Part shown: positions 1-23,040 of the stretch, piece after piece | Layout of the letters: each line of letters starts with the position of its first letter | Numbering within the stretch: position 1 is the first letter of the stretch | Assembly (NCBI GenBank): GCA_900128565.1 | Contig: LT636010.1 | Span: 1-23,040 of the forward strand | Reading direction: 5' to 3' | DNA from: Stramenopiles sp. TOSAG23-6 | Taxonomy: Eukaryota; Sar | Length of the DNA: 23,040 bases | The notes under the pieces: model-generated | The model's input: the letters and a program-made list of their open reading frames with translations, nothing else | The model's database searches: none | Told to the model about the DNA's origin: nothing | Program-made: the position numbers and the translations under genes

Positions 1-968
1 AAAANGANGANGANGAAAAAAAAGAAGAAAAAGAAGAAGAAAGGAGACACAGAGACAGAAGCAACAGACGAGGAAACACCAGAAGCTGACAACGCTGTTG
101 CAACTGAAGAAACCCCAGAGGACGGCACAGAAGACAACGCTGTTGCAACTGAAGAAACCCCAGAGGACGATACAGAAGTTAAAGAAGAAACTAGAAGATT
201 TCGTTTCAGACAACTTAGCCCTAACCCTACAAGATTTCGTTTTAGACACAAAATACAAAGCCAACAAAATTTGTATTTGGGACTGAGAAATCGAAATATA
301 TCTAAAACTGGATGTGCAGATGTATGTTTTATTATTTTTTTTTTGAATTTTGATTTTGATTTTTTTTTTCATACGAAATTTTGTACCTAACAATTGTTTT
401 TTTACTCAATTTTTTTTTTTTGAAATATTTTTCCAAAATATATGGTCTTGCACCAACTGTAAAAGCTGACACTCCTCAACCTCCAACTCATTTCACAGAT
501 TTTTCATGTCAAACATTTTGTGTTATAAAAGATCTATTTTGTCAAGATCAAAGATTTGTGAAGTTTTCGCCAATGTACATGTATGTTTTATTTTTTTTTT
601 TTTTACCGAAAAAAAAAATCGAATTTATTTTTCGTACGAAATTTTGTACCTAACAATTTTTTTTAGATTTTTTTTTAAATATTTTTCCAAAATACATTGA
701 ACTACTCCAAGATATGCATGATCGTGGAATGATTGTTGACGAATCCGTTTATATCGCGATAATGCAACCTTTTATTTGGGATTGTACAGTTTCATCCGTG
801 AGTATCTTGCAAACACTTTTAGAGGATCGAGTTATGAGAGGTGGTGAAGCTACTGCTGATATATATCGATGTGTTATATTAGGTCATCAAAATATTGGCG
901 ATGAGGAAAGTGCAAATGAATTAATTAAAGCAATGGAAAATCAAGGAATGTGTTACCATTCAAGATGA
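1..968 (+). CDS. PPR-like protein, 3' part, three exons (5' end outside window)
   Basis: Exons are <1-321, 444-580 and 698-968 (TGA at 966-968). They are joined by removing two introners at the AT boundary rule, which keeps one frame open through all three (at least 242 residues). The N-terminal part is lysine-rich, then acidic, with a 15-residue repeat (DNAVATEETPED core) present twice. The C-terminal part contains stretches such as ELLQDMHDRGM and ANELIKAMENQGM that match the second helix of pentatricopeptide (PPR) repeats; about two repeats are visible. PPR proteins usually bind organellar RNA, so an organellar RNA role is plausible but inferred. The first bases include four N calls in a GA-rich run, so the extreme 5' sequence is unreliable. 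The gene is convergent with the helicase gene, with only 51 bp between stop codons. Confidence 0.6.
88..168 (+). repeat. 45-bp in-frame tandem repeat in the PPR-like gene
   Basis: Two nearly exact copies begin at 88 and 133 (period 45 bp, 15 codons) and encode the acidic DNAVATEETPED motif. A degenerate third start follows. The low-complexity acidic stretch lies between the lysine-rich 5' end and the PPR part. Confidence 0.85.
322..443 (+). mobile_element. Introner copy 1 (intron, 122 bp) in PPR-like gene
   Basis: Begins GTATGTTTTATT after exon GCAGAT and ends CCAAAATATAT before GGTCTT. Core TTCATACGAAATTTTGTACC, then CTAAC at 387-391. Removal joins GAT to GGT in phase 0. The body has an internal GATTTT expansion, which makes this the longest copy. 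Confidence 0.9.
581..697 (+). mobile_element. Introner copy 2 (intron, 117 bp) in PPR-like gene
   Basis: Begins GTATGTTTTATT after exon ATGTACAT and ends CCAAAATACAT before TGAACTACTC. Both boundaries share TACAT. Core TTCGTACGAAATTTTGTACC, CTAAC at 650-654. Removal gives ATG TAC ATT GAA (phase 2) and avoids the in-frame TGA that would otherwise follow. The body has a T-run facing an A-run (about 590-618) that could fold into a hairpin. Confidence 0.9.
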
Positions 969-973
969 ATAAA
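968..973 (+). promoter_or_regulatory. Possible polyadenylation hexamer AATAAA overlapping the PPR-like stop codon
   Basis: TGAATAAA at 966-973 places AATAAA so that it starts on the last base of the stop codon. With the convergent helicase stop only 51 bp away, the two 3' UTRs must be very short or overlap. In AT-rich DNA the hexamer can occur by chance. Confidence 0.35.
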
Positions 974-1019
974 CAAATTGAAAATAAACCAATTTTTATG
1001 ATGTATACTTCTTTATCGT

Positions 1020-4000
1020 TTACTTTTTCTTTATTGGGATACATTCTTCTCTGATCCAATATTTTGGTGATATTTCTTTTGCAAATCTTGAAACTTTTGC
1101 AAAATTCCCATTTTCATCCTTTAACACAAAAGTCGCATAAAACTCCTCCCGAGCTCTCGTCAATGCAACAAAAGCTAACCTTCGTTCTTCCTGAACATGA
1201 GTTGTAGAAAAATATGTCATTTTGTTTTCATTTTTTAATTTTTTTTAATTTTTTTTAATCTTTTGTTACGAAAACAAATTTTAATTTAAAAAAAAAAAAA
1301 AAATTAAAAACAACTTAATTCGAAATTGAAAACGTACATCAGTAATTGTATTTTGCATTATATTCAAATCATCTGCAAGAGTTTCAATTGTCGCAAAATT
1401 ACGTTGTGGTACTTTCCAATGCATACCCCAACGAACTCCATTGGTAAGTGATGAACTCGCAACCTTTGCTGATTTATATGCATTTTGTATCGGTGTCAAG
1501 ATCTCTTCATGTTGCTCAATTAAGGGTATTATTCTTTCATTGAAACGCATTAGAAATACAACTGGCCATTCTAAACCCTTTGCTTGGTGAATAGTTGACA
1601 CTACGACAGCATCAGCTCTTGTTTTGATACCATGTTTACTATGCTTCTCCATTTGTCTTCTCTGTAATACTGACAGTATACATCGACGGAGATTTTCACT
1701 TCCTTTACTTTTATTTTCTGTATTTGTTTCAAATTTGAGATCGATTTCATAGGCTAAAATATCTTCTTTCAAAACTGAAATATTATGTCTTTTTGTTTGC
1801 TCTGTTTTTTTATTTATTCGTAAATAGTCTAAATATCCTGTTTGTTGTAGTATAAAATTAATAATTTCACTTGGTTTCATGTCCACAATTTCTTTACGAA
1901 TCTTTTTAATGTCTCGACAAAGATTTTTTAGAGATTTTTTTTGATCTGAATTTAATTTTGGTATTATATTTTCGTCCTCTCTAGAATTTTGTCCGTCATT
2001 TGCGGCAAGACAAAAGACTTCCCATGCAGAGAGTTCAGGATCTGACTGCCATATTTTTTGTAATTCCTTTCGAGTTTTATGTCGTATACCCGTTGTTTTA
2101 ATGCCAAGTACACGAAATAATGAACTATTAAAATCAGATTCGTCATGTGATGAAAAAGGATTTGTCTTTGAGAAAGAATTGTTCATTCTCATAGTGAGTA
2201 CATCACACCAAGCGAGAATATGGATTATGAAAAAATATTAAAAAAAAAAACCTAAATTTGTTAGGTACAAAATTTCGTACGAAAAAAAATCTAATTTCGA
2301 AATTGAAATGAAAACGTAAATCCTTTACTTCTGGTGTAGCATAAGCATCACCAGAGACATGCTCTGCCGTATTTAACGTAGGAATATTTAACTTTTTAAT
2401 TGCTACTTCGACCATTTTTGCTAGTCTTTTCGTTCGGGCTAAAACACAAATATCACGAAATCGCCTGCCTCGCTCTGACCAATGGTGCCGTATATTTGAT
2501 GCGATACGGGACACTTCATGATGAATATTTAAACATGGTAATAAATGTAATTTACTACCATTGGCGTTTGAAGTCCAAATATTCTTCTGTTCCCTGCCAA
2601 AAAACGCATAAATTGGAATCCTACTAGAATATCCTATATTTTCTATACTTTTATTATTTTCTATATTTTTATTTTTCATCAGAATTGGCCCATTTTTACT
2701 AGGGTTAGTGCTAACTAATTGTTGTAAAACTCCTGTTGAATCTTTAGAATCTTTAGAATGTTTAGAATGTTTAAGATCTTTAGAACATTTATAATCGTTA
2801 TGTTGAATAAGAGAAAATGCTGCTTTGACAATCGTTTTTGTTGATCTAAAATTTCGTTTTAGTGTTAATATTTGAGTGGTGGGGAAAATATCTTGAAATA
2901 AAACAAAAGCACGTGCAGAAGACCCACGAAAACTGTATATTTGTTGATCATCATCTCCAACCACCGTAATAGCAAGTGATTTTTCACATAATAGTTGTAT
3001 TAAATCAATTTGTTGTTGACTAGCATGTATTTTGGAAAAATATTTCAAAAAACAATTGTAAAAATCGTTAGGTATAAAATTTCGTACGAAACAAAAATCG
3101 AATTTGAAAAACAATAAAACATATATCTTGAAACTCATCTACTAAAAAGTGTGTGAATTTTTTTCTAATATTTTTTAATATAGTATTTGCATTCGTTTTG
3201 AGCAACATCAAACACATCGGAATAATATCAGCGAAATCAACTAAATTTTTTTCTTGGAGATTTTTTTCATACATTTTGTATATTTCAAAAAATTCACTAA
3301 CAGCAGCACCAGATTTTTGCTTTTCTTTTTTACCACTATCCAGGCTATATTGCAACGGCGTCAAACTATTGATATATTCCGAAACCAAGCACGGTCGGTG
3401 CAATCTTTGTTTACACATTTTGATAAATTTCATACAAATTCCCACAGATTTTTCTACTACGGGATCTTTTTGACTATTATTTTTTTCAGTTTTACATTCC
3501 GTACCAAATTCCGTACCATTTGATATTTCTGTGTCTACGAAATCTTTTTCAATTTGATCAACTTTATTCAAAATTCTTAGATTAGTACTATCTAATGCCT
3601 GTATTGCTCCAAAATTATCACTATGGTGTATTTTATATTGTTTATAACATTCTCTAATTATTTTTTTCTGCTCTTCGGGATTGACCACTTTTAGCTCATT
3701 GGATGACCTACAGCGACCCGTGGCACCAACGTTTCTTTTTAGAATGCGAAGGCAAAATCCATGGAAAGTACAAACCTGTAAAGTTCGAATTGATTCACTT
3801 CGAAATACTTGACTCACTCGTTCTCGTATTTCATTTGCGGCCTTGCGAGTAAATGTCACAACACATATATTTTCAGCTTTTATACCTGATTGAAGCATGT
3901 TGATGATACGACAAGTCAAAGTTAATGTTTTACCTGCACCAGCAGAAGCGATAATAGCTAGGGGTCGATCAAAGGAAGCAGTGACTGCCTTTCGCTGATC

Positions 4001-4603
4001 CTGTGTCAGGCGCGCCATATATTTCTTATCCGAGGAGGCTACCAAAGAACCCAAGAGTTGATTTGAAAAAAGATTGGCAACATTAAGAGGTTCAATCGAA
4101 GACGTTGGAGTTTCGATGTTGTTTTCGTTTTGTTTGTTTGCACATGTTGCAGAAGTTTTTGTGCTTGAAGAATGCGGGTTTGAATTCAACTTTGTGATAG
4201 GTTTGGCGGACTTTGGTGTTTTGTATGTTAATAAAGTACTATTTTGTTGATGAGAGTGTGAATTACCCCGATTGCTAAGAAAAGTGTCCCACATACTTAC
4301 ATTATTTGTTTTAGTAAATCTAGATCTTCTATTTGCATCACTAGAAATCTTTTTTGTTGTTGCTGGATTCAAAGTATTCTGATTGAGATCAGAACGATGC
4401 TTACTATCGGAACTTTGGCGGGGGACAGATGTTTTCAGCGATTTCGAGAGATGTGTCGACGAAGAGGAATATCCCCGCTTTCGTTGATCAAAACCTCTCA
4501 CACAACTACGATTTCTCTTCCTTCGAGACTTCAAGTCGTTCTTGATTTCATAAGGTCGTGGAGGCAGGACCTTTGGGCGAAACCAATTAAACTTGTTCGG
4601 CAT
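1020..4603 (-). CDS. UvrD/Srs2-type superfamily 1A DNA helicase, four exons
   Basis: Exons on the minus strand are 4603-3125, 3024-2320, 2219-1338 and 1229-1020, all phase 0, giving 1,091 residues. SF1A helicase motifs appear in order: Q-motif region LTQDQRKAV; Walker A ASAGAGKT (about 219-226, Lys225); VTFTRKAANEI (Ia); DEFQD (489-493); QIYSFRG (521-527); LKRNFRS (548-554); STIHQAKGLEWP (about 936-947); EERRLAFVALTRARE (about 1036-1050). The family uses ATP to move 3'-5' on DNA, and eukaryotic Srs2-like members act in recombination control. A basic, Ser/Asn-rich N-terminal extension of about 200 residues (including SRRKRNRS) precedes the helicase and could hold a nuclear or organellar signal. 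The open frame extends to a TTG at 4648, but 4603 is the first ATG. Longer than bacterial UvrD (about 720) because of the N-extension and low-complexity insertions. The third intron is degenerate, so that junction is less certain. Confidence 0.88.
1230..1337 (-). mobile_element. Introner copy 10, degenerate (intron, about 108 bp) in helicase gene
   Basis: The 5' end GTACGTTTTCAATTTCGAA matches the family, but the core has decayed to TTCGTAACAAAAG and the 3' half is A/T runs with no CTAAC. Cutting after GAT on the left and after TTAAAAAAT on the right restores the frame (GAT GAA AAC AAA ATG ACA) and follows the AT rule. Other nearby 3' cuts such as after GACAT break the frame. It looks like an old copy that still needs removal. 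Confidence 0.6.
2220..2319 (-). mobile_element. Introner copy 9 (intron, 100 bp) starting TT instead of GT
   Basis: In gene orientation the exon ends GTAAAGGAT, the element begins TTACGTTTTCATTTC and ends CATAATCCAT, and the next exon begins ATTCTCGCT. Removal gives the helicase sequence PEVKDILAW. The shared boundary is only AT, so the possible cuts give AT-CC, TT-CA or TT-AT ends; none gives GT-AG. The core TTCGTACGAAATTTTGTACC and CTAAC are perfect. Confidence 0.88.
2738..2782 (-). repeat. 9-bp in-frame tandem repeat in helicase gene
   Basis: About five units of GAATCTTTA-like sequence (plus strand) encode the Lys-His/Asp-Ser rich stretch KHSKHSKDSKDS between motif IV and the C-terminal helicase domain. 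Probably a flexible, length-variable loop. Confidence 0.7.
3025..3124 (-). mobile_element. Introner copy 11 (intron, 100 bp) starting AT instead of GT
   Basis: In gene orientation the exon ends GAGTTTCAAGAT, the element begins ATATGTTTTATTG and ends CCAAAATACAT, and the next exon begins GCTAGTCAAC. Removal joins helicase motif II DEFQD to ASQQQ in phase 0. The shared boundary is AT only, so possible ends are AT-AC, TA-CA or AT-AT. Core TTCGTACGAAATTTTATACC, then CTAAC. Confidence 0.88.
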
Positions 4604-4759: not shown

Positions 4760-7700
4760 AGGAAGTGGATGAGAATTAAATTCTTCTTTTTTTAACATTT
4801 CCTTTCTTTCTCGTAGCTGAGCAAAATAATCACTATAGTAGTCACTATAATAGTCTGCATAATAATTTGAATAGTGCATGGTTGTATACATTCGTCTCTG
4901 TGAGTGATGGCATTTATCACAAAATTTCTGCTCTTTTTGACACAAATAACAATAATGTTTTTCTGTCGCATTTGAACCGAGTGTGTAAAGCAAAGTAGGT
5001 GTGAGTGTGTGTGTCAATGCCCTTGTCAAAGAATGTGTCAAAGTTATAGTCATTGAGCTGTGCAATGCATTTGGTAACATTTGGTTAATTATCTTTGGAA
5101 TTGAATATGAAAGAGATTGTGAAAGACTGTGTCCCAGTCCATAAGCAATCCGATTTGAAAGAAAATTTGTTAAAGGCAGGCGAATCTTACTTGTAACAGT
5201 AGCAAGTAGATTTGGAGTTATCGTATTTATTAGGCTTTCGCTAACAATTCCGCCAAGCATAGTAGTGAGTTTATGGACCAATTCCTTTAGCATTGGTTTA
5301 CAAGTTGCAGATAAACAAACGGCTTCTGATTTTTCAACCATTAGAAGTTGTCGGCCGCCACTGCGAATATTATTCTCACTGTTTGCAAATGAAAGATCAG
5401 TATTCTGTTCATTCTTATTCTTAATATTTTGTAATGCTTTTTCGGTATACTTCGTGAATGTGCGATCGAGTTTATCGGACAGGTGTTTAATACTGGCACT
5501 GCTCTTAGCGTCTCTTTCGGTAACAATGTCGGAAGATAGAGTAGCAAAATTTCGTATTCTTCGTTTACTCGAACCTTTCGCCATATTATTTCGCTCTTCA
5601 AGTTGTATGAGAATTGTATCAATTTCTGCATGTGTCATTATTTCATGTCCAATTACGTCATCTTTTTTTCTGTTGGGTTGTACATTCTTAAATTTAGGAA
5701 TATTATATTTATGATGCAATCTGTCATTCCATTCGAGAAATGAAAATGCCTTACCATTTCTATCATCTCCATTAATTGTTGAAACTTTAGAATCCTCGCC
5801 ATTTGTATCTGAATTTACATTAAACCATGATGAAACATCACTGTCTAAAATATTCCTCTGGTTTTCTTCCAGTTTTGTAAGTTTTTCCAGTATATTTCGC
5901 ATAGCGTAACTTTGTGCTTTGGCCAAATGAAGATTTTTTTCCTCAATGAAGGAAGTTCCTAAATCTTTCAATGCTGTAGAATAAGTAATATTTCTGTGTT
6001 TCTGTAGCAAATCTGTTACTACTTTGCCTTTCTCACCTCCAAGTCGATTACCATAATCTTCTTCTAATGATGTATCGATGCTTTCCTTGCCTTGTTGTTT
6101 TGCATTCGCAAAGATATTATCTATGGCATTAAAATACCCTTCGTGTAATGCTTTTGAGTTGTTTGCAAAATGTGACGCTTCATGAAGCCTGCCTTGACTG
6201 TGTAAATTAAGTAAATGCTTCAGTTTTGTTTGCTGATATTTTCTTAATTTTGACCTCTGTATCTCTTGCCACCTGGCAGATGCATTTGCAGAGAATGATG
6301 AAATAGGCAAATCATGACGTTCGAATCTATTTTGAATTGATTTGACGTATTCCTTTGCAAACATTGATGCACTAGCTGAACTACGAGATTTATTTTGTAG
6401 TATATATTCCGTGCCATTATTACCCGTAGAAGTATACAAATGAGTTATATTAGTTGTTTCGGTTATATTGTGTAAATTATTGAAATTATTAGAAGCAAAT
6501 AACTTTTCGCCACCATCATCGCCAAAATAACGATCCTGATGATAACCATTCCTTTTTGCTGCTGATAAAAGCTTTGCATTGGCCTCACGAAATCGTATAA
6601 ATTGTGGGTCACCATAACCACGACCAGTACCAAATGCAGTATTTTTTGATAACTCTGTCCAATTTCCAATGCTACTTCCAACGACAATATTCCTCATTCC
6701 CCAGACTTCTACACTTCGCCAACCAAACGGAGATTCTGCTTTTAGTGTTCGAATACGAATCCTTGAAGTTCCCCGTTTTGCTTTTGGAAAGTCTACTTCC
6801 AGCCACATTTTATCAAATTCTCTAACTTTGATTTCGGTAACTTTTTCCCATGTTTTGCCTTTCAATGAAGCAGATCGTTCAATGATGTGATGTGCATCAG
6901 CAATCTTTCTTCCAAACTTTCGAGTGTTTGGAATTTTCTTGTACTCTGTAGATAAAACAGCGATGTCATCATTTGCTTTCTTGCTGCATTTTTCAAGACA
7001 CAGTCCTGCTTTCCATGCAGCTTTAGATTGTGTACCCTTCACTTTGATAGATTTAGCTTTTGTAAGCATACACTTACTAGTACAATTCTTTCTTTTTTTA
7101 TCTAATTCGTTGACCTTTTTTGTCCATTCTGCCACAATACTTTTTGTCGCCGAGTTTTCTAATTGTTTTTGTGGTAGTCGAGTTTTGTCTGGGGGTCTAA
7201 ATACTCTTAAACGCATTCGTGTTACATTTTGAGGTTTTGTCCAAGATAATTCAAACCAGTGCGGTGGTTTAGTCGCGGCTGCAATCCAACCATACACAGC
7301 AGGTTTTCGGCTACCATGGTCCATCATTTTTTCTATGCCAACAGCTAGTTTAGCAGGAGTGTTGAAATTATCTAACATTTCCCAGAATGTATCCTTAGAA
7401 TGTAAGAATTGTCGGAGTAGTTCTGGCACATGAATATCCATTGGTCCACCCACACCGTACAATTTACGCATCCCATGCCAGAACTTGATTAGCTTATTAT
7501 GGCCTAGGTTCATTCCACCCGTAGCTTCTGAATCGAACCATTTTGTATCTTTAGTAAGTTTATGCTCTTTCTTTGTCCCAATTTCACTAGATAATACATT
7601 GGCCATTCGAGCCACTTGAAGAATATTATTCAATTGTGGCGATGTTATCCCGGAACCAGAGCTCGATGCGGTTACAGTAGCAGCGACAGAAATAAGAGCT

Positions 7701-10700
7701 TCCCAGTCAACAGTAACATTAAATGGGGGTGGTTGCATCGCTTTTATTGCTGTTACATTCGGAGATGGAAAGGGTGGAGCTTCCTCTGGTAACAATGGAA
7801 CTAATTCTCCTTTTGGAGGTTCTTCCCCTTTAACTTTTGCCATAAGTGTTGCAAGCTCATTGAACTGCTCCTGTAGATTTTCTTTTAGAGCATCTCTTTC
7901 TTTTTCCAAAGCTTCGATTTTTTCATTTGTTTTTTCAGCAGTATTTGCAATTTGTGCTGCTACATTCTTTTCTACTTCTTGCTTTTCAGTTTCTTTTTCC
8001 TTCAAATCATCTTTAAGGCTTTTCACTTTTGCCTGAAGCTCTGGAACAGTTGAAGCTTCAAGTCTAGTTTCTATTGCAAGTTTTCTTGCATTTAATTGAC
8101 CCATTTCTCTTTGAATACTTAAACATTTTTGTTTTTCCTTGAGACTTGCGCCACTAGTTGGTTTTAGCACCGATGTGAGACATTTATTGAAATTCATTTT
8201 TAAACCTTCTAATTTTGGGAGCATTCCAAATTCAGGTAAACAAGCTTTCGTTGTAGCCATCACTGCTGCCATTGTCAAATTCATAGGCACACCATTTGTT
8301 ATTGCGAGGGGTTTTATTTTCTCAAAATTAGAGCATTTTAACTCAAGTGGGCCCAAAAGATTCAAAAGCTGTTCCATTTTGAGACGTTTCATGTCCATTT
8401 CTATTTGTAATTTAATCCTCTTCATTTCCAATTCGATAGCTAGCTTTATTTCTTTGGCAAGTCTTATGGCAGCAAGTCTCATTTCCCTCGCAAGTTGTAT
8501 CGCAGCTTCAATTTCCAATTTTATTTGGATTTTAATTTGTTCTAACTGTTTAATAGTAAATTCAATAGCTAACTTCATTTGTTCAATCTTCAGCAATTGC
8601 TGGGCTATTTGCAGTTGTATTTCTGCTTTCATCCTGGCAATTTTGTCCATGATTTCTTGTTTCATTTTGTTAATTAATGCCATTATATCTGTGACGTCTG
8701 GAATCCCGATATTGAGTACAAGATTAAGTACGACTGGTATAACTTCAAGCATTACTTTTGCAGCCTTTTCAATCATCTGCATGATGAGTTGCGGTGCAGT
8801 CATCGCAATAACACAGAGGACAATTAAGCCCAACAACGAAGACATATCAAAACCAAATGGAAGGGGTGGTTTAGGGAAGGGAAGCATTGCTGGAAGTCCA
8901 AATCCTGGTAATACTACACCCCCGTTGGTTGGACAGTCGCCTTGATTCAACACAGATTTTGTATATTTTTTCCCATACACATCAAGTGGTTCTTCACCAG
9001 CCCTGGAATCTGATTCCATTAGAGATAGAGCTGGTACGATCCGATTATACCGGCGTTTCTTTGCATAATTTACAACACTAAGAAATGGATCGGTTTCTAT
9101 ATTACTATCTGACTTTGGCAACCCATGTGACCGTGTGGTTCTGTCTTGACTATAAAATATTGGCATCTGATTTACTCCGTATTTCATTGGACCAGTTGAT
9201 GAGGAAGTCAGTGTAGACATTTCAGATCCTATTTCCAAGAAAGAAGTACTCCGTTTTCCATACTCACCTTTAGCTGGATCAGTCGACTTTAACAGTCCAT
9301 TGATTGTATTTTCATAATAACTAACTTCTCTAGCATACTCTTCTTTTGATATGACTGCTTTTACATTATCATTTTCAGATGACTTTACTGATTTAGCTTC
9401 AGATTTGGATTTTTCTGCACAATACTGTGCTAATAATTTTGCTTTTTCTTGACGCTGTTTCATTGTAGATGTGCTTCTCGATGTTGATTTAAATGAAAAC
9501 ACATCAGAAGGAGAAAATTCTCCTGGTCTTGTTGCAGGTTTTCTAGATAAGTTGTATTGTTCTGTGCCTACAATGCCTCGTTTTTTGCATGCCATATACT
9601 GTGCTTGCTCAATTGAACAATTCCCCAAGTCATTTGCAGCTTTAAAGCATGATTTGAAGGCGGCTGTTTCTACAATACACCCGTTTGGATCTTCTTCCCG
9701 AAAAAATGCATATGCTGCATCGTATGCTGCTGTGGCAGAGGCTGACTCTAAAAATATAACTGAGCTCTCCGCATTAGCTCTGGCAAGAACATCTTCTGCG
9801 GTAATTGGGCCAATTAAATTCTCTACTATATCTGTTGAATTAGTCCTAACAAGACTATTTTGAAGAGTCTCTACTCGGCCACCATTTATTGTAGTATTAT
9901 CTCTGCTTAGATCTTTTATAGTATTATGTATTGTACCGTTAGTAGGGTTATGGTTTGCAGCAGCAACAACATTTTTTATAGTAGTTGGCGAATTCTTTGA
10001 CTTGGTGCTTTCATTTTTCCTCCTAACACTATTGGCAGCTTTCTCGGCCGCGGATGCTGCTACTTTTGGATTATGTACGTTTGGATTGACGATGATAAAT
10101 TCTGCAGCATTCAGTGGAACTTCATGGGGTGAGAAAGAAATTTTACCAATGAATGAATTTCCGTCGATATCTAAAAGTCCTTGACCCCAAATGTTTTTTT
10201 TTCCTGTCTCTTCATTAACGACATTTACGTCATTCAAAGAACGAAATATTAAACGACATGATGGAATAATGGAACGTGGTATTCGACCTCCAACTAACTG
10301 CTCTATACCAAATACAAGATTTGATAGTAATAATCGTACTGTAAGTATTGATTCCATCGCCTTATGGTTCTTAGAATTTTTATCTTCAATAATTTTCGAG
10401 TCGTTACTTGTTAATGGAAGCGTTCGAAACCACCGCCCAATAATGTCTCGACGGCCCATAATTGGAGAAAATCTTGGGTGGCCTGCCTTTTTTTGTGATG
10501 TGGTGAATTTCAAACTATTTGGGTCATAAACAACTTTTGATGGAAAAGTATTATTTTGAACCTTTTTGACACATTCTAGTTGTGTTGTAAGCTCAAGAAG
10601 ATCTCGAACAGATTCCCAATCTGCCTCATTGATAATTGGCCACGTTCCATTGAAAAATGGACCTCCATCTTGAGAAAAATGAACCCGAAAATTTGCAGAT

Positions 10701-11137: not shown

Positions 11138-14100
11138 ATGAAGATGAAAGGGGCAAAGGGGCAATTAGAACTTGTTGATGTAGGAGTCTCTATTCCTTTC
11201 GAAAAGGCTGCTGGTCCTGAAAAGCATTTCAAACCTTCCGAAACCTCACGTTTAGCTTGTTGCACACAGTTATCTGCATTATTAGCCAAAAATAAAACGC
11301 AGCAGTGTCGTCATAAGCTTTCCACCACATGTGAACTCTTATGCCCATTGTTTTGGATTGCTTTATTTGGTTTTGTTTATTTACAGTTTGAATTCAAGAC
11401 TACATGTGAATATATTCCTTTAGGAAGGTCAAATGATGACATTTTTGTCGTGTCCGGGACACCCTATTCGGATGATCACTGGGCATCTCACGAAGAAAAA
11501 AAGCAAAACATTAACTTACAATTATTTTTGATGAGAGCACGAAAATGGAAAATTGCTTTATACCCAGACTCAGCTGATTTGCGAAAATTTGTCGATCGAG
11601 TAGATAAGATTGTACCCGGTATAAATCCAGCTGAAATATTTTCCGAAAGTCAGATGAAGAATACGCCAGATTTAAAGTATTTCTCTATGCCAAAGTTTTC
11701 TGATTTAGTCGTATACAAGAAAGATGAAAATGCACTGCACGATTATATAGGCCAAGCTAGTTATGATTCTCTCGATAAAATCGTATTTGCAGTTGCTTTT
11801 GAGAAGACTGGCTTCCAAGATAATATTTGGGAATATACCATTCGTAACAATCAAACATTGGCTGCGAGCCCCGACATTGGCCAAACTGATATGACAATTC
11901 GCAATGGAAAAGGATGGGTACAGGATTGGGGTAATGACAATTCTGTTGAAGGTCAATCAGCAAGGTATGTAAGAGGATATGCTGATGAGATTACTCGAGC
12001 AGAAGGTTTCGATAACAAAAATGATGACAACCACAATAATAACTACTGTACGTTTTCATCATGAATTTCAATTTTTTTTTTTTTGGTTTCATACGAAATT
12101 TTGTACCTAACAATTTTTTTTTGAAATATTTTTTCAAAAGACATGTGATCATCAAACAGGACATCCAAAAGATTTTCCAAAGTCACAGGAAGTACATTGG
12201 GGTAGTGTACCAAACTTTGCAGGAATACAACTATTACTCGATAGAGCTATTATAAATACGCCGTCTACGACATTGTCATCTGCACAAAATTTCTACAAAG
12301 CAATCGCACCTAATCATTTTCAGTGGAGTGATCACAACGCTCTTCGTAGTGCAGCCTGGGAAAGAACATCTAATTTATTTAAGAATCTTTCGTGGTGTCA
12401 TTTTGGAAACTTTATAGACAAAACTGTTCGTCCTCTTATTTATGGATTAGATGAATCAGGACGCAAAAAATTTATTGAAACTGTATTTGCATTTGAAAAG
12501 TCACATATAATGGCACCACAATCAATTACACTTGCTAATTTTCCAGAACCTCGTTTTAGATCAAATATTTTCTTTGAACAAAAAACCATCTTGAATATGA
12601 TGAGTATTTTTTTCGTTTTTGCATTTTGTGTTCCAGTAAAACATCTGCTGAATAAGATTGTTTATGAACATGTATGTTTTCAGGAACAATTTTAAATTTA
12701 AATTTAAATTTATTTATATTTTTATAAAAATTTTGTACCTAACAAAAAAACAAAAAAAAATGAAAATGAAAATATTTTCCTAAAATACATGAGTCTGGAA
12801 TAAAAGAAGGTATGAAAATGATGGGGATGAATGAATTTGCATTAGTCACATCATGGTTAATAACGTATGGTTCACAAATTATATTAACTATGCTTATGGT
12901 TAGCGTCGCAGTGAAAATGACAATGTTTGCAAATTCTTCGATTATCTGTCTGTTTGGATTCTTCTCTTGCTTCTCTTTTTCAGTAATTTCATTTTGTTAT
13001 ATGATGAGTGGATTTTTTTCAAAGGCGACGACCGCAGGAGTTATAGGTGCACTCGCATTTTTTTGTTCATTTTTCGTTTATTTTGCAGTGAATAGTGATT
13101 CTCCCGAAGTCACAGTCCGGATGATCTCTTTCTCTGGAACTGCTTCATTTGCTATGGGTCTTGACACAATCGCGCTATTTGAAAAAAGTGAAATTGGCAT
13201 GACATCTGAAACGTTTGATAGCGTTGGGTTGAACGGTTTAAGTTTAATGGAATTTTGTATACATATGCTTATAGACAGTGCACTATATATTTTAATTGGA
13301 TTTTACGTAGACAAAGTTGTACCAAAAGAAAGGATGATTTCTTTACATCCTTTATTTTTTATCTTACCATCGTTTTGGTGTCCAAGAAGGTGCACATCGT
13401 CAAAAACGCAGTATCAACAAAACGATCGAGTGGGTAACTATTTTGGTGAAGTTGGGGAAGACAATCAAGATAAAGATCCTCATTTTGAACCACTTGCACC
13501 TTTACAAATGAAACAACTTGAAAATCAAAGATGTTTGCAAATTGATAATCTTCGGAAAGAATTTCACACAGCTGATGGAACAAAAAAAGTTGCTGTTGCT
13601 GGTCTAAATGCCGCAATGTTTGAGGGACAAATTTATGTATTACTCGGTCATAATGGTGCTGGGAAGACGACAACGATATCCATGCTCTGTGGGTTGATTT
13701 CTCCTTCTGGTGGCTCAGCTACTGTATTTGGTTATAATGTTCAATCAGAAATGCATAAAATCCGTCAAATGATTGGAGTGTGTCCTCAGCACAACGTATT
13801 GTACGCAGATCTAACTTGTATGGAACACCTGATGCTATACTCGCGAATAAAACTTATACCTTCTTCAAAGCGCAAGGCACAATGTCAACAGCTATTGAAA
13901 GATGTCGGTCTTTCTGAAAAGACAAATATGTTAACACCAACTCTCTCTGGTGGTCAGAAACGTAAATTGTGTCTTGCGATTGCTTTGTGTGGTGATTCGA
14001 AAGTATTATTTCTAGATGAGCCGACCTCTGGTATGGACGTTTTTGCTCAACGTTCAACCTGGAATCTTCTACAAAAAGCAAAAGCCAGTCGTATAATTAT

Positions 14101-17100
14101 TCTGACTACACATTCTATGGAAGAAGCTGATGTGTTGGGTGATCGAATCGGAATTATGGCAAATGGTAAAATGGTGTGCAGTGGATCACCTTTATTTCTG
14201 AAAAATCTGTACGGAGTTGGTTATTGTCTTACTTGTACACGAGCACCTGATGCTATTGCTGGAGGCACTGAAGATGTTGCGCTAGAACAAGCGATTATGG
14301 GACTCATTCCTTCTGCGAAGAAGCTGTCGGAACATGGTAAAGAACTGTCGTATCAGTTACCTCTCGCATCAGCTTCATCATTCGAAAGATTATTTGAAGA
14401 TCTTGGAAAGTTAAGTGATCAAGGAACTCTAGACTCGTTTAATGTTTCAGTAACTACAATGCAAGAGGTATTTCTTCGATCAGCAATTGAAGCTGAGAGA
14501 AGTGTCGCACAAAAAAAAGCAGACGAAGATTTGAAACGAAAATGTTCAATGAGAAAAGAATCATTTCGAGGCTTGTCTTTGGAAGCGAAAGAAAACGAAG
14601 AGAAGAATGCAAACGCTGAAGAAAAGTCACGAATTCAACGTCAAAGGACTTTGATGGGTGAAGAGGCCGAAAAAGCTCTTAACAATCGCCTCAAGCGATT
14701 GAATCGAAGTATGATATGTGTACATTTTGTGGCTCTTTTAGCAAAACGATGGCATAATGTTAAACGTGATTTTAAAGCAGTTTTGTTTCAGGTTATTGTA
14801 CCTATATTTGCACTGTTTATTGGTATTTACTTTGTGTCAAATGTAACAACGGAATACAATGCAATAGTACCAAATACAGCCAAGTTTAATGAGAAATTGA
14901 AGGCTCCGTATTCACACAATACGAGACTTCCATTTACAATGATAAACCCTTCACCAAAAGTGAATGAACTGATTTCTAGTGTCAAATCCAGAAAAGATTA
15001 TCAAATCTCAGGTTCTGATTTTGATGCAATTTCTGTTATTACAAAATACGATGGTCAGTATTGCCATAATGAAGACATTAAAGAAACTGATGAGTGGTAT
15101 GCCACAAATATGCCTGGTAAAGATCCCTGTGACCCAAATACAGCTCGAACTATGATTTTTCCCGGAGTTTGTGCGACATGTCAGCAAGCTAATCTTGATT
15201 GTAAAGGTTTGGTGAAGGGAAGTATTTGTTACCCAAAATCTCAAAGTCAGATACAATCGATTGGTGCCATGGGATATACTGATTTAGAGCTATTGCACAT
15301 TGTGCAATCTGGCTGCAAGGATAAAGCTGTGGGTGACTCTTGTAAGTTCACTTTAGAACAAGACATTAATAAATTTGATCCTTATACAAAGAGTCAGTTG
15401 ATAAGTGCTGCTCGATACTCAGTACTCGAAAATAAGAGAAAACTGAAAACTATTTCTAAAAATGAAAAAATCGAAATGCAGAGAATAGCTTTTTGTGCAA
15501 TGAATAAGCGAGTAATTGAGACTTCAAAATTAGATGCTTCTTCTGTGTATAGCGCTATGATGTTTCACGGTGACACAGATATAGTTGATGGGCGTTTTCA
15601 TGCTTCCCTTCAATTTAATCAAACAGCACCACATGGTCCTGTCCTAATGCAAAATATATTGAACACGGCCATTTTACGGCGGACTTTACAATCTACCACT
15701 GCTTCAATACAGGTGACAAATCATCCGCTACCACCTACAGCATCTGAAATTGCATTCAGTACTCAAGTCGCTGGTTTCATGGTCGTGTTTATTGTTGGCA
15801 TTGCGTGGGCTTTTATTCCAGCTGCTGCGGCTGAATTTATCGTTCACGAAAGATATCACGGTGTTAAACATCAGCAATTAGTTTCAGGTGTCTCATTGAC
15901 TGCTTATTGGTTATCAAATTTTTTCTGGGATTCTATTCAATATACTATTCCTGCTGGTGCTGGTGTCGCGATATTTTTATATTGGGATATTGATGTATAC
16001 ACTCGATCATCGGGTAATAATTTCATGTGTTGTGTCACTTTAATTGCCACATACGGGCCTGCAGCTATAGGTCATGCGTACTTACTCAGTCGTCTTTTCG
16101 AGAAACCGGCAAAGGCTGTAAATTCCATTCTTGTCATGAATGTTCTCCTTGTTATTGTAATTATCGCTATATTCGTTGCACAAACAGTTAATGCGTCGTC
16201 TTGTAATATTGCATCTAATTTGAGACGACTGTTTTTAACTTTTCCAGGATACGCATTCGTTGATGGCCTTTTAAGACTATCATTATCAAGTATCATGATG
16301 ACATGTGATGAGCGCCACAATCCTCTTGTAATGCCACCCCGTCTCGCTGAAGGACAATTTCCTGATGCATTTCAAATGAAAATTACTGGCGATTCTATAA
16401 TGTATATGGGAGTTTGTAGTCTTTTATATCCGATTCTGTGCATACTTATTGAACTCTTTTATAGTGTTCCAACTTTACGAAAACTATTTTGTGGTTGCTT
16501 TGAACCTAGCACAACTGATAAATTATGTTATGATGACGATGACGTAGGTACTGAGGTGAAGAATATGAAGAAAAATGCAAATGTATCATTGGCTGAATCG
16601 ATGGTTGAGGTACGCGGTCTTCGAAAAGTATATAATGTAAAGAAAGCTTCAGGTGGAAGAAGTGTCAAAGCTGCAGTCAAGGATATGTGGTTTCGAATTC
16701 CACAAGGTGAATGTTTTGGTCTTCTTGGTGTAAATGGTGCAGGCAAATCAACTACTTTTAAGATGCTCAGTGGTGATGTGTTACCATCCAGTGGCACTGC
16801 GCGTCTTGGTGGCCGTGATGTCATGTCTGAGCAAGTTGCCGTTCGTCGGCTAATTGGATATTGCCCTCAGCATAATGCATTATTACCACGACTTACTGTA
16901 ATTGAGCATTTATATTTATTTGCAAGGATCAAAGGTGTAACGAATGGAATTGATTTGGTTGTTAAAAATCTATTAAAATCTATGGATTTAGTTGAATTTA
17001 CTCATAAACGCTCATCGTCTCTTTCAGGGGGTAATAAGCGAAAGTTATGTGTTGCCATTGCACTTATTGGAAATCCTCCTGTTATTTTCCTGGATGAACC

Positions 17101-17974
17101 TTCGGCAGGTATGGATCCTGTAGCAAAACGATTCATGTGGGATTTAATTTCGAAAATGTCAACGGAAAATTCTGAAGCTTCACAGAAGCTTACGATAATT
17201 CTCACTACACACTCTATGGAAGAATGTTCAGCACTCTGTACTCGCATTGGTATAATGGTTGATGGTCGTTTGCAGTGTTTAGGATCTGAGCAGCATTTGA
17301 AAAACAGATTTGGTCAAGGATATCAATTGGATATTAAGTTGAAGGAACCTACAACAGAAGAGATAAATAACATTCTAGATACTATTCGAAAGACAATAAA
17401 TCCAGCGGGACATATTTTATCGAAAGATATAGATAAAGCATGTAGCGCACTGGGTGATATTGGTAGAAGTGTTCAGTTGATGCCTGATGATGTTAATGCC
17501 AAACCTAAAAGATCGAAAACATCTAATAATTCCGAGGCTAATGATAACAAGACAGCTGGAAGTTCATGGTTATTGAAAGAAGCTCTCACGAAAGAAGGAT
17601 TCTTAGAGGCTACTTCATTCGCTAGGTGGTGGTTACGTACGGATTGGACGTTTGCCGTATCGACTTGGGTATCACAGGAACTCTCGTCTACTACAGATTT
17701 ACAAGAGCAACATGGAGGAACTATTCGATATGCTGTGGATGGGATGCCTAAATCGAATGATGCACAGGACACTCAAGGTGCTCAACATGCGGCAAGCACT
17801 AGCGATGGTAGTAGACGGGTTAGTCTTGCGCGAATGTTTGGTATGATGGAAAGTGCTAAGCAAAAACTTTTCGTTGAAGAATATGCACTTGGGCAGACTA
17901 GTCTTGAACAAATTTTTATTTCTTTTGCCAAGAAGCAAGAAAATGATGCAGGTAATGTAAAAGGCTTCAAATAG
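11138..17974 (+). CDS. ABCA-class full-length ABC transporter, three exons
   Basis: Exons are 11138-12047, 12145-12671 and 12791-17974, giving 2,206 residues, close to animal ABCA1 (about 2,260). Layout is TMD1-NBD1-TMD2-NBD2. TM1 is near LLCPLFWIALFGFVYL, followed by a large extracytosolic loop; EHESGIKEGMKMMGM is the conserved ABCA coupling segment, rebuilt across introner 4. NBD1: Walker A GHNGAGKT (765-772), LSGGQ (864-868), Walker B LFLDEP (D888, E889), H-loop His920. NBD2: GVNGAGKS (1792-1799), signature LSGGN (1890-1894, Gln replaced by Asn), Walker B FLDEP (D1914, E1915), His1953. The tail YALGQTSLEQIFISFAK matches the ABCA C-terminal motif. The family moves or flops lipids across membranes; substrate and membrane are unknown here. 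ATG 11138 is chosen over 10916 because only the former gives an ABCA-like N-terminus. Both introners sit in the first quarter; the last exon is 5.2 kb without one. Confidence 0.93.
12048..12144 (+). mobile_element. Introner copy 3 (intron, 97 bp) in ABCA gene
   Basis: Begins GTACGTTTTCATC after AACTACT and ends CAAAAGACAT before GTGATCATC. Core TTCATACGAAATTTTGTACC, CTAAC at 12107-12111. Removal gives AAC TAC TGT GAT CAT in frame. The left exon ends ACT instead of AT, so this copy alone limits the cut to positions around the shared TGT. Confidence 0.9.
12672..12790 (+). mobile_element. Introner copy 4 (intron, 119 bp) in ABCA gene
   Basis: Begins GTATGTTTTCAG after TATGAACAT and ends CTAAAATACAT before GAGTCTGGA. 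Boundaries share ACATG. The palindrome is eroded to TTTATAAAAATTTTGTACC but CTAAC (12739-12743) is kept. Contains an AAATTT tandem run. Removal restores VYEHESGIKEGMKMMGM, a conserved ABCA segment. Confidence 0.92.
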
Positions 17975-18316: not shown

Positions 18317-18976
18317 TTTTATTGATAATTTTAAAAAATTCCTACAATATTTTTTTATCAGTGTATTACTTTTTGAGTAGCAACACTCTTTTTTGTGTGT
18401 ACTCTTCCAATGTGTTTTTTGACACTTCTTTGAACAATACCACACACATTTACACGCATTACAAAAGTATAATTCAGTAATTTTGTCAACTTTACCACAA
18501 TTCACACATTTTGAGTTGTCATATTCCAGTATCTCGTTTTTTAGTGTCTCATCTGTTGTATCTGTTATCTGTTTTTTTGCTTTCCTCATCCACTTTGCTC
18601 CTGCTTTATAACATTTAGTGACACCCAGACCCTGCAAATAAAATAAACCAAGATTACACTGTGCTTTCACGCAGCCTTGTTTTGCAGCTTTTGTATACCA
18701 TTCAGCAGCAGTTTTATAACATTTAGTTACACCGTGACCTTTTTCATAACATACACCAAGATTATACTGTGCGTGCGTAAAGCCTTGTTTTGCAGCTTTT
18801 GTAAACCATTCAGCAGCAGTTTTATGACATTTAGTAACTCCATGACCTGTATAATACCATAAACCAAGATTAAACTGTGCTTCCATTCGGCCTTGATTTG
18901 CATCTTTTGTAAGCTCCTCAGCGGTTGGCGCATAAACATCACCATGAACACCACCAAAAAATTTCAGTCCTTCCAT
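18314..18976 (-). CDS. Sel1-repeat protein with C-terminal MYND zinc finger
   Basis: 220 residues from ATG 18976. Three Sel1-like repeats of 36 residues (about 16-135) carry the pattern AQFNLGLWYYTGHGVTK...AAEWFTKAAKQG. They are followed by a MYND finger, Cys157 to Cys198, with CVNC, CNAC, CSKKC and HKKEC as the zinc ligands. Sel1 repeats form alpha-solenoid scaffolds and MYND fingers bind proline-rich peptides, so an adaptor role is likely but the partner is unknown. The frame stays open upstream to a TGA and could use the GTG at 19069 (31 more codons, no in-frame ATG). Either translation starts at 18976 or a 5' exon or leader supplies the start. Repeats are also nearly identical as DNA. Head-to-head with mS33. 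Confidence 0.85.
   Translation of the reverse strand: MEGLKFFGGVHGDVYAPTAEELTKDANQGRMEAQFNLGLWYYTGHGVTKCHKTAAEWFTKAAKQGFTHAQYNLGVCYEKGHGVTKCYKTAAEWYTKAAKQGCVKAQCNLGLFYLQGLGVTKCYKAGAKWMRKAKKQITDTTDETLKNEILEYDNSKCVNCGKVDKITELYFCNACKCVWYCSKKCQKTHWKSTHKKECCYSKSNTLIKKYCRNFLKLSIK
18590..18930 (-). repeat. 108-bp tandem repeats encoding Sel1 units
   Basis: Matching segments recur every 108 bp; for example TTCAGCAGCAG occurs at 18701 and 18809. About three units, the outer ones more diverged, which suggests recent internal duplication of the 36-residue unit. Confidence 0.75.
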
Positions 18977-19768: not shown

Positions 19769-21552
19769 TTAAATATTGTCGTACCAACGATCTTCAACAG
19801 TCACACTTGTCAATCTTTCATATGGATCCACTAAAGGAAGGCCATTTGTTGCATATTCTATTTCCTTTTTGAATTCCAAGAGCTCCATATGTTTCAAACG
19901 TTGGATTTTCTTTTGTTTTGTTTCCTCAATTTGTGCATTCAAAGTTCGTTCTTTTAGCGAAAGACCACCTTTATTCCTCTCTGCTATTCTTAGTGCTGTC
20001 GCAACCTCTATTTGACTAACACCCACTCGCTTTCGTTTGACTTTGATTTGTGGTGGTTTGCGTAAAGCAGCAAGAATTCTTTTTGTTGAAAGATTTTTTC
20101 TTTTCCGTATAATTTTTTCGTTTTTTCGGAGTCGTAATAATTGAAACTTTAATTCATTTTGTTCTCGTTCAAATTTCTCATCCTCGCTTTCATTTTGTGT
20201 ATTGTCTCTTATGTGTCTCGTACTATTAATGATACCATTGATAGTACCATTGATAGTACCATTGATAGTACCATTGATAGTACCATTACAACATGAATGA
20301 TTTTTATTGTTACTACAATTTCCATTTCTAATCATCTCAACTCTATTTGATATTTCTTTCGTTAATTTTTGCTTTTCTATTAGCATATTTGATCTGCCAT
20401 TAAAATCACATGGGTTACATTGTGTTTTCTCATTTAGTTTCACAGAGCATTTTATACTACTATTATATCCGATGCGCTGATTTTTCAGCCAATTGGCAAT
20501 TTTATAATGATGTTTTGTTCGCGCTACATTTTCTGGCTTTTCTCCCGTAGTTTTTGTGACAATATTTAGTAGCTTTTCTCGATCTTTACTTTTTCTATTT
20601 TTTTGTCTTTCAAGATGAAAACTTGAAGAAGAATAGTTTATATTTGATGCTTTTATATGCTCTATATATCTGGGAATATTTGAAACGACACCAACAAGAA
20701 ATTTCACAATCACTTGACTACCTTGTCTTGCAGCTAGATGTATTTTGGAAAAATATTTAAAAAAAAATCGTTAGGTACAAAATTCCGTACGAAAAAAAAA
20801 TTATTTACTAAAAAAAAAAAAATAAAACATACATGTAGAGCCGTCCAATTTTCTTTGTCAACTGTTCCTATCAACCTTTTTACTGCAGCAGCACCACCTT
20901 CCTTCAAACATTGTTCAATGAGCCATTGAACTACAGAAACATGCCCTTGATCACACGCAAGCATAAGAGTAGTACGACCCCTCCTTTCCTTTGCTTCCAT
21001 AAAAGCACCATTATCTTGTAGCCAACGCATCATCTCTAGGTTGCCTGCAGAGGCTGCGACATGTATTGGATGAAAACCTCTTTTATCAAGGGATACGATA
21101 CTCCCCCCCATACTATATATGATTAAATGCGCAATATGAATGTTGCCAGTCATTGCTGCTATATGTATAGCTTTGAGATTTTCTCCACCGGTCGCTTCGT
21201 CAGCTAAAACCACGTTAGCGTTACGTGCACTTTGTAGCAAAGTCTTACGAAAAAGGTCAACTTGGCCTGTGCGAATTGAAGCCACAACTTTCTTTTGCTG
21301 TTCTATAGTAAAAGGCACCGAATAGTCACACAATAGTATTCGAGGTTTTCTGGGTAAATTTATTTGGTTAGCATCTGATAAAAGTTCCTTCAAACGTTGA
21401 GGTTTCCTTGAGGAATGAAAAGGTATTTTACATTCATGATCAACTTTACTTTGTATAGTTTTATATAATTTTAGCCCTTGCCCTTCTTTTGAAGTTGGTT
21501 GACTATGAGGCCGACTATTTCGACTTCGAGAACTAAATCCAATGGCACGCAT
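19769..21552 (-). CDS. Ankyrin-repeat protein with Lys-rich C-terminal region, two exons
   Basis: Exons 21552-20833 and 20737-19769 give 562 residues. Four ankyrin repeats lie at about 122-265: LKAIHIAAMTGNIHIAHLI, GFHPIHVAASAGNLEMMRWL, GRTTLMLACDQGHVSVVQWL and WTALHLAARQGSQVIVKFL. The last is rebuilt across the introner, inside the TALH-LAA signature. Ankyrin repeats mediate protein binding. The remaining 300 residues are basic and low complexity, with an NGTI repeat, then a helical segment ending PYERLTSVTVEDRWYDNI that I do not recognise. No membrane segment or signal peptide is visible, so it is probably cytosolic or nuclear. Divergent from the carboxypeptidase gene. Confidence 0.85.
20234..20287 (-). 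repeat. 12-bp in-frame minisatellite in ankyrin gene
   Basis: Four and a half exact copies of ACCATTGATAGT (plus strand), encoding NGTI repeats. Exact identity suggests recent slippage, so length may vary between strains. Confidence 0.9.
20738..20832 (-). mobile_element. Introner copy 8 (intron, 95 bp) in ankyrin gene
   Basis: In gene orientation the exon ends GCTCTACAT, the element begins GTATGTTTTATT and ends CCAAAATACAT, and the next exon begins CTAGCTGCA. Boundaries share TACAT. Core TTCGTACGGAATTTTGTACC, then CTAAC 32 nt from the end. Shortest copy. Removal restores the ankyrin signature TALHLAA in phase 0. Confidence 0.93.
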
Positions 21553-21764
21553 GTACGAATGAATAATCTATAGAGAATTAATCTTTGTAGATCTTTTGAT
21601 ATTGACTAGGGACGTTTTCTTGTTGTCATCTGGAGGGAAAGTCAATGACGTCATAACAGAAACGAAGCCATCATAACAGAAACGAAAAACTGCTACTGCC
21701 GCTACGAATGGTTGGCTGTTAAACTTATATTACGTATCTTAACACAATCAGTAAATTGAATAAA
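21553..21764. promoter_or_regulatory. Head-to-head intergenic region (ankyrin / carboxypeptidase) with CRE-like site
   Basis: 212 bp between ATGs. Contains the palindrome TGACGTCA (21646-21653), the CRE/bZIP octamer, overlapping the first of two 16-bp direct repeats TCATAACAGAAACGAA (21651-21666 and 21671-21686). Probably a bidirectional promoter; the bound factor is unknown. Confidence 0.5.
21651..21686 (+). repeat. 16-bp promoter direct repeat, two copies 20 bp apart
   Basis: TCATAACAGAAACGAA occurs twice exactly with a 4-bp GCCA spacer. The 20-bp spacing is about two helical turns, which would place paired binding sites on the same DNA face. Confidence 0.75.
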
Positions 21765-23040
21765 ATGCATATTTTAAAGTCCATCGCATTGTGTGCTGTG
21801 ATTACTTTGGTATCTGCCGCACCAGAGAGTGACTTTGTTGAATCATTACCTCTCTATGGTCCTCCGCCAACACCAATGTACAGTGGCTTCTTGAATGCGA
21901 CTTCGTCATCACCTGACCGTGGAGTCCGCTTGCACTACTGGTATGCGCAAAGCACTAAACTAAACCATAGATGGGCTCCTACTGTCCTTTGGTTAAATGG
22001 TGGACCAGGTAGTACGTCTATGTTGGGTATGCTTCAAGAGAATGGCCCGCTCTTAATCAACGCCACTGGCGGGTTGATGGACAATCCTTATGCCTGGACA
22101 AAGTACGCAAATATGCTATATCTAGAAAGCCCTTCTGGTGTTGGATTCAGTTACTGTCATTTATCAAGTGTTCCCGATTCTGACTGCAAAAACACAGATG
22201 TAACAACAGCTCGAGATGCTCGTATTGCTTTACAAGACTTTTTTACGAATAAATTTCCTGAATTGAGAGGAAATGAATTCTTTATTACAGGCGAGTCATA
22301 CGGTGGAGTGTATGTATTTTAGAATTTTTTTTCAATTTTGAATTTTTTTTTCGTACGAAATTTTGTACCTAACAAATTTTAGTTTTTTTTTTTAAATATT
22401 TTTCCAAAATACATGTCCCTACACTGGCTCGTGAAATTTTAGACAATGCTCCAGAAATTAATCTTAAAGGTGTTGCCGTTGGCGATCCCTGCACTGATAA
22501 TAAGGCTCAACAGGATTCAATGGACATGCTCTGGTATGCTCACAAACACGGTTTTGTTCCTGATGTACGTTTTCAAAATTGATTTTTTTTGAAACATTTT
22601 CATACAAAATGTTGTACCTAACAATTTGTTTTTCTAAAAAAAAATATATTTTTTCAAAATTTATGATGAGTTCGATTTATTATGGAATAAATGCCGCGCT
22701 CGTCACCCACCCCCACTTGTACTAGGTACGGTCAAAGGTAAAGGAAATGCAGATTCTCGAGGACGAATGCAAATGTCAGTCTGGAGTGAAGAATGCCTCA
22801 TTGCAAAACGAAAATACATGCTACAATCGTCCATGGCATTTTCACAAGTTTGGGATCATGCTTGGATCAATAATTTATCATTATATGGACCGGGATCTCC
22901 AGGTGATGTCTCTTTTGATCAACCAGGAAGTTTGAATTATATGACTTTACAATTTATGTACGTTTTCATTTCAATTTCGAATTTTTGTTTTCGTACGAAA
23001 GTTTGTACCTAACGATTTAAAAAATTTTATTGTTTTACAA
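21765..23040 (+). CDS. Secreted serine carboxypeptidase (peptidase S10), 5' part
   Basis: Exons 21765-22313, 22415-22564 and 22665-22957, with a further intron at 22958 running off the window. ATG 21765 is chosen; the TTG at 21756 is not needed. Residues 1-18 are a signal peptide (ILKSIALCAVITLVSA). S10 hallmarks: LWLNGGPGS (oxyanion loop, 76-84; the usual Cys after NGGPG is Ser here), YLESPSGVGFSY (119-130) and GESYGG with nucleophile Ser178. Introner 5 splits GESYGGVY from VPTL. The catalytic Asp and His lie beyond the window. The family removes C-terminal residues from proteins in lysosome-like compartments or outside the cell; which applies here is open. Three introners in 1.2 kb is the highest density in the window. 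Confidence 0.93.
22314..22414 (+). mobile_element. Introner copy 5 (intron, 101 bp) in carboxypeptidase gene
   Basis: Begins GTATTTTAGAA after GGAGTGTAT and ends CCAAAATACAT before GTCCCTACA. Boundaries share ATGT. Core TTCGTACGAAATTTTGTACC, CTAAC at 22369-22373. Removal joins VY to VPTL in phase 0. Confidence 0.94.
22565..22664 (+). mobile_element. Introner copy 6 (intron, 100 bp) in carboxypeptidase gene
   Basis: Begins GTACGTTTTCAAAATTG after GTTCCTGAT and ends TTCAAAATTTAT before GATGAGTTC. Core TTCATACAAAATGTTGTACC, CTAAC at 22618-22622. Removal joins FVPD to DEFD in phase 0. The most diverged of the copies that still have an intact CTAAC. Confidence 0.92.
22958..23040 (+). mobile_element. 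Introner copy 7 (intron, cut by window edge) in carboxypeptidase gene
   Basis: Begins GTACGTTTTCATTTCAATTT after CAATTTAT. Core TTCGTACGAAAGTTTGTACC then CTAAC. The 3' end is outside the window, so its splice rule cannot be checked. Confidence 0.88.

Follow-up and report, generated by a model that had tools for sequence, protein, structure and literature searches.

The 23,040-nucleotide (nt) stretch analysed here (contig LT636010.1, positions 1 to 23,040, assembly GCA_900128565.1 of Stramenopiles sp. TOSAG23-6; hereafter the window) carries a repeat of 95–141 bases inside five protein genes. Ten copies are complete and an eleventh runs off the end of the window; all lie in the coding direction of the host gene. 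The repeat has the consensus AT/GTAYGTTTT .. TTCGTACGAAATTTTGTACCTAACAA .. TTTTTCCAAAATACAT/ or .. TTTTCACAATACAT/ (slashes mark cuts) and belongs to a large introner-like family, i.e. many alike introns at unrelated gene positions of one genome. That these introns are removed after AT, not AG, is well if indirectly supported: reading frames and protein homologues agree on it, and public gene models fail at the same sites. The most probable explanation is a short non-coding mobile introner that the major spliceosome removes under a relaxed demand on the final intron base, and whose end letters may be a duplicated target. Such elements would have moved as DNA, inserting into genes in the sense direction and leaving the transcript as introns. 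The donor (GTATGT or GTACGT) and the branch site (TACCTAAC) would come with each element, which would end in ATAC; insertion would duplicate two base pairs of target (AT in most cases, GT in some), the second copy of which would form the last two intron bases. A U2-type spliceosome would then take the normal donor and branch site and cut after YAT, or more rarely after YAG, CGT or another triplet, at a distance of 31–55 bases downstream of the branch A, restoring the pre-insertion sequence. Introners as such are known; new here is one with a non-AG acceptor, possibly taken from the target site.

In the window, the first gene (PPR-like by eye only) contains copies at 322–443 (+ strand; in-frame join GCAGAT/GGTCTT) and 581–697 (+; SPMY/IELLQDMHDRG), the conserved branch-site-like core TACCTAAC being exemplified at 360–393 (+). 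Three copies interrupt a UvrD/PcrA-type helicase gene on the − strand (1,197–4,603, from the start codon to the end of the last copy, the gene continuing beyond; PDB matches to PcrA and Rep): 3,025–3,124 (DEFQD/ASQQ), 2,220–2,319 (EVKD/ILAWCDVL) and 1,197–1,337 (NTITD/VQEERRLAFVALTRA, junction set by eye from frames), the last diverged and without the CTAAC core. An ABCA-type transporter gene (11,138–17,974, +; Pfam ABC_tran and ABC2_membrane_3, and homologues) has two, at 12,048–12,144 (NNY/CDHQTG) and 12,672–12,790 (YEH/ESGIKEGMKMMG), and a gene for an ankyrin-repeat protein, identified by eye (19,769–21,552, −; 562-residue joined frame from 21,552, the low end computed from frame length), has one at 20,738–20,832 (−; TALH/LAARQG, in an ankyrin-like repeat). 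The S10 serine carboxypeptidase gene (21,765–23,040, +; PDB match to lysosomal protective protein) carries complete copies at 22,314–22,414 (GESYGGVY/VPTLA) and 22,565–22,664 (FVPD/DEFDLLW), plus the 5′ part of a third at 22,958–23,040, with a GTACGTTTTC start and the core.

An initial sequence-only reading had held that all ten complete copies are cut at AT, and when the frame is kept all ten do end in AT and none in AG; cutting after this AT joins the host frames without internal stops (for the 1,197 end, by eye). Its description of the introns as GT...ACAT does not hold for every copy: GT begins eight of the ten, 3,025–3,124 being AT..AT and 2,220–2,319 TT..AT. The ambiguity that it saw around the shared AT is also borne out, as the cut can be placed at 3 to 6 equivalent points in each copy. 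Only two positions are open to all copies alike, GT..AT and, one base to the left, TG..CA, and we infer GT..AT because the left shift breaks the GTATGT donor motif. Shifting two bases left would instead give minor (U12) AT-AC introns. This would yield an identical mRNA for most copies, since AT is frequent before the GT and AC before the final AT, and neither reading creates a stop in 14 of the 15 copies where the two differ. However, the copy at 12,048–12,144 gains a stop if read AT..AC, the donor is not the ATATCC of U12 introns, and the branch site lies 31–55 bases from the end, which is not typical of them; we regard U12 splicing as very unlikely indeed.

Protein homologues settle what the frame alone leaves open (multiples of three), fixing the position of the cut at codon level. 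At both helicase junctions, DEFQD/ASQQ and EVKD/ILAW, the joined product aligns without gaps to PcrA (DEYQDTNRAQ and EIKDILAY). Around the two S10 junctions (20 residues each) 118 of 120 homologues show no net indel. Of 120 proteins searched with a motif for the second ABCA junction, 60 were matched, and 57 of these have the Glu that the AT cut restores. The exceptions include two public gene models, EukProt GSMAST32.ASY1.ANO1.946.1 (ABCA, P0001; 77% identity over 53% of the query) and GSMAST32.ASY1.ANO1.947.1 (S10, P0121; 91% identity over 100% of the query), which we take, from long identical stretches, to come from the same or a very close species: the former is among the three motif-matched ABCA proteins without Glu, and the latter is one of the two S10 exceptions at each site. 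The AT cut is modelled at none of the five ABCA and S10 junctions in these two proteins. P0001 begins past the first ABCA junction and is one residue short at the second, where an in-frame AG lies 3 bases beyond the end; P0121 swaps GGVY for a longer stretch at the first S10 site, is two residues short at the next site and runs on into the third copy. We infer that forcing an AG acceptor caused these errors.

The same models bear on the possibility that these are canonical GT-AG introns, with the true acceptor an AG near the repeat end and the AT a repeat-boundary illusion. Parts of both proteins resemble such a choice, and for 14 of 44 copies an AG that keeps the frame and creates no stop lies in the stretch from the branch site to 30 bases beyond the end. 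Of those 14, though, two end in AG themselves and three have the AG only or also 30–33 bases upstream; with the donor fixed, 30 of 44 copies have no such AG, and the nearest AG downstream of the branch site keeps the frame in 12 of 44, a number close to chance. Five of the nine window copies with a CTAAC core contain no AG at all between core and end. An AG acceptor also loses the residue kept in 57 of 60 ABCA homologues, and the public S10 model has indels exactly where nearly all homologues have none. We consider this explanation very improbable, and the claim of the sequence-only reading that the cut lies at AT, not AG, stands.

Across the 8.03-Mb assembly (408 contigs), the 18-base family core gave 2,578 matches with ≤2 mismatches, compared with 5 for a reversed control, and the 29-base 3′ end gave 770 compared with 0. 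The number of distinct copies is lower than these match counts because some contigs look mirrored or near-duplicate. Contigs C2, C4, C13/C14, C27 and C37 show matches at mirror-image places on the two strands or at almost the same places in different contigs; palindromic-looking or duplicated contigs can arise in amplified single-cell assemblies. When exact matches to the 3′ end were taken with either G or T as final base, 96 of the 100 listed (of 548) end in T and four in G, two of the four being mirrored places on one contig.

Frame tests used copies from fetched loci plus the window (303,591 bases including overlaps), with one third expected to fit by chance. With an intermediate filter on end calls, the GT..ACAT length modulo 3 fits 44 of 50 testable copies. 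Strict end calls (56 copies) give 34/36 with 99-base flanks, 25/27 with 75 and 16/19 with 60, while 48 of 62 fit without any end-call filter. The two strict misses are the window copy at 22,314, the start of which was placed 4 bases off by the script, and L002:1445. In a second collection, for which frame was required and the outer two bases were unscored, 86 of 223 cores passed; these end in AT (64), AG (5), AA (5), GT (4), TT (4) or otherwise (4), and 61 begin with GT.

Splice signals were counted in 49 tight, frame-validated copies, the best of the collection, with element lengths of 86–137 nt. At the donor, +1 is G in 43, +2 T in 46, +3 A in 45, +4 T in 34 and C in 15, +5 G in 46 and +6 T in all 49; at the acceptor, −3 is C in 42 and T in 7, −2 A in 45 and −1 T in 45, the final dinucleotide being AT in 41 and AG in two. 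The branch A of the TACCTAAC core lies 31–55 bases before the end in 48 of 49. As copies were gathered via the core and chosen by internal motifs, the presence of the core is built in and conservation within the element partly so, and donor positions +3 to +9 served to locate the ends; the two outermost bases at either end were unscored. The GTATGT donor and TACCTAAC branch site look like major-spliceosome signals, which we liken to those of yeast-type introns with YAG changed to YAT.

Relatives with an AG end were also identified. Copies in L015, L042, L043, L045 and L040 have AG instead of AT in identical register, with the joined frame open in each of these; a further copy, in L033, is doubtful, its start being called at TT. 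The position of the AT is thus tied to that of a normal acceptor, because relatives carry AG exactly there. Other ends are AC (L022), AA (L049) and GT (L008), and the last intron base may be loose in general.

Orientation distinguishes removal from RNA from elimination at DNA level. Of 81 copies with acceptable ends, 51 are clearly in sense orientation, none is clearly antisense and 13 are unclear; the flanks of the remaining 17, including the single most negative case, scored as non-coding on both strands. Removal from RNA is favoured because the clear copies are all sense. Elements absent from the expressed genome, on the model of the internal eliminated sequences of ciliates, would explain why the ends carry short direct repeats and why the frame is restored exactly, but not the uniform direction of the 51 clear copies or the donor-like and branch-like signals, and the closest protein matches are gene models from marine stramenopiles (MAST); such elimination is hardly credible here.

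Removal from RNA could in principle be independent of the spliceosome, as with the nonconventional introns of euglenids, in which the two ends pair and the stem sets the cut. The ends of the present elements show partial complementarity (AUGUAU to AUACAU), four of ten predicted folds contain end-to-end pairs, and two window copies lack a GT start. Six of the ten folds have no end pairs, however, and fold energies lie near those of 50 simple shuffles (z from +1.1 to −2.5). Where the donor is GTAC, the partner shows no compensating change, A being kept in 13 of 15 copies, and the GTATGT-like donor is itself conserved. Stem-guided removal therefore seems improbable, and the spliceosome is the likelier agent.

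The sequence-only reading had not included the option that the AT arose when a transposed element duplicated its target site, for which the signal is modest. When the exon end is compared with the end of its own intron, the −2 column is identical in 40 of 49 copies, against 35.3 ± 1.3 under random pairing, with a slight excess at −1 (42 against 40.5 ± 0.8) and none at −3 or +1. Three copies (L019:1269, L050:9404 and L020:649) have GT at both ends. With no more than moderate confidence, we read the terminal two bases as a 2-bp target duplication. A minor but real chance is given to major-spliceosome introns in which the AT is part of the element and a preference for insertion after AT mimics duplication. 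Exon ends are mostly AT, and the −2 match largely follows from composition (35.3 of the 40 identities being expected); in addition, L045:4343 has exon GT and intron AT, and L008:433 exon AA and intron GT. The excess identity at −2 and the three copies with GT at both ends speak against it.

Several points weigh against the explanation as a spliceosomal introner with a target-derived end. The duplication amounts to only 2 bp and appears as one column about 3.6 standard deviations (SD) above random pairing among 16 examined, columns −8, +4 and +5 also being about 2.2 SD above, and exon-end and intron-end dinucleotides differ in 15 copies. The inverted ends are short and imperfect (GTATGTTTT / AAAATAC), and no transposase search was made. 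Junctions are deduced indirectly, from the genome and from protein homologues. Six of the 50 copies (in L002, L003, L019, L037, L043 and L046) miss the frame, of which L002:1445 has clean ends and is unexplained, and miscalled ends probably explain some of the non-GT starts among the 49 copies. The signal must comprise more than YAT, which also occurs upstream of the site used (AAATATTTTT). Finally, searches for U1, U2 and U6 RNA and for U2AF35 gave nothing usable in the partial assembly and, lacking a working positive control, are uninformative: a U6 pattern had two matches with 3 mismatches, Rfam being silent on the one fetched, and Rfam at gathering level had no match in 140,000 and in 122,274 bases.

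From the non-AG cut the sequence-only reading had gone on to propose an altered spliceosome or a separate mode of recognition, to be checked in U5/Prp8, U2AF35 and the U1 and U6 RNAs. The cut is upheld; the alteration is unproven, and of these components Prp8 is the one that could be read. It is present (L052, G000:C84), and a 617-residue part aligns to human Prp8 without indels, including a 21-residue stretch identical to human and Gln1522, which we take to contact the 3′ splice site. Prp8 thus appears ordinary in the part read. At ~1,480–1,515 of L052 its frame shifts at a run of N, probably an assembly gap rather than a broken gene.

For introns outside the family, a motif-free coding model found 106 gaps of ≤600 bases, with the family core in 66 and absent from 40. 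A stricter recount gave 17 core-less gaps of 40–300 bases, eight with good coding flanks; by eye, L040:7898-8003 alone looks like an intron, the others resembling intergenic gaps or antisense artefacts. Canonical introns are not proven absent, because the coding model is blunt (the recount rated 28 of 36 family gaps ‘weak’). With slightly less than even confidence, we suggest that nearly all introns of this lineage may be one YAT-acceptor family, for which an ordinary-looking major spliceosome has dropped the demand for G as last base, the acceptor coming from the target and the AG copies being later reversions.

Among the papers covered, the nearest precedents are Amoebophrya (PMC7789003) and Fritillaria borealis (PMC13326754). 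The introner elements of Amoebophrya (Farhat et al. 2021, PMC7789003) are repeated introns with non-canonical ends, direct repeats of 3–5 nt at the borders and inverted repeats of 8–20 nt; splice dinucleotides vary widely, and 252 and 1,954 families were distinguished in two strains. The present introns are likewise repeated and non-canonical at their ends, with a candidate direct repeat across the exon border and short, imperfect inverted ends, but they differ in forming one dominant family with near-fixed GT..AT ends, clear donor and branch motifs and a direct repeat of ≤2 bp. Another Amoebophrya uses mostly GT/AG (PMC12005148). In Fritillaria, introns escape GT/AG in bulk, with an AU 3′ end on record and an AU-ending probe tested (PMC13326754). 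The bulk departure from GT/AG and the AU ends are shared, but the Fritillaria donor is changed too (AG-A(N); PMC7789003), whereas here the donor is GT and the acceptor has changed; U2AF genes are duplicated in Fritillaria (PMC13326754), while here U2AF was not found in the partial assembly, in a search that was uninformative.

Introner families that bear a 5′ site and co-opt a 3′ site in the target are described for Chrysochromulina in a study of introners with target duplications (Gozashti et al. 2022, PMC9860276), and introner splice sites in that study are GY/AG with rare GC and GA donors; the present elements resemble these mobile introns but have AT as acceptor. The spelling ‘noncanonical’ is absent from the main text of PMC9860276, the hyphenated form being unchecked. 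TG 3′ splice sites, reported in 36 human genes as alternative sites (PMC2374985), are also U2-type introns without AG, but here a genome-wide family is concerned. Three MAST papers (PMC5778133, PMC8163842 and PMC12614181) use ‘intron’ 2, 0 and 0 times in their main texts, and the passages covered contain no discussion of splice dinucleotides; one word in ‘splic’ occurs in PMC8163842, outside those passages. Among open-licence papers, no literature combining MAST-3 and introners was found, searches for introner and stramenopile gave none on MAST by title, and GT-AT or non-canonical introns gave no comparable family by title among the matches listed.

Introners are a well documented source of mass intron gain, which raises the question of how a new intron obtains a working acceptor. 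Here the acceptor looks like little beyond target letters that the machinery accepts; in that case one base of the AG rule can be given up with donor, branch site and Prp8 all remaining ordinary. Errors in the public models checked are false indels, the loss of an exon and one intron that is read through, and the predicted proteome, perhaps also those of related MAST genomes, may need re-annotation.

The host appears to be a MAST stramenopile, probably of MAST-3, a placement based on the best protein matches (GSMAST32 models in EukProt). A dinoflagellate origin was considered and rejected: unlike in Amoebophrya, no match to the dinoflagellate spliced leader was found at ≤2 mismatches, and the nearest proteins are MAST models. 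The only pattern match to small-subunit ribosomal RNA (SSU rRNA) is a full-length bacterial-type gene at 177–1,669 of L051 (G000:C136; Rfam RF00177), which could reflect contamination, prey, a symbiont or an organelle.

Elsewhere in the window, a 2,058-codon open frame at 4,760–10,933 (−) has no Pfam match at 0.001. Three 137-base repeats with 108-base spacing occupy 18,570–18,922, and at 88–177 and 20,220–20,287 there are a 45-base repeat in two copies and a 12-base tandem repeat. Short telomere-like stretches (CCCTAACCCTAA or part of it) lie in gaps between open frames in L033, L038, L002 and L013.

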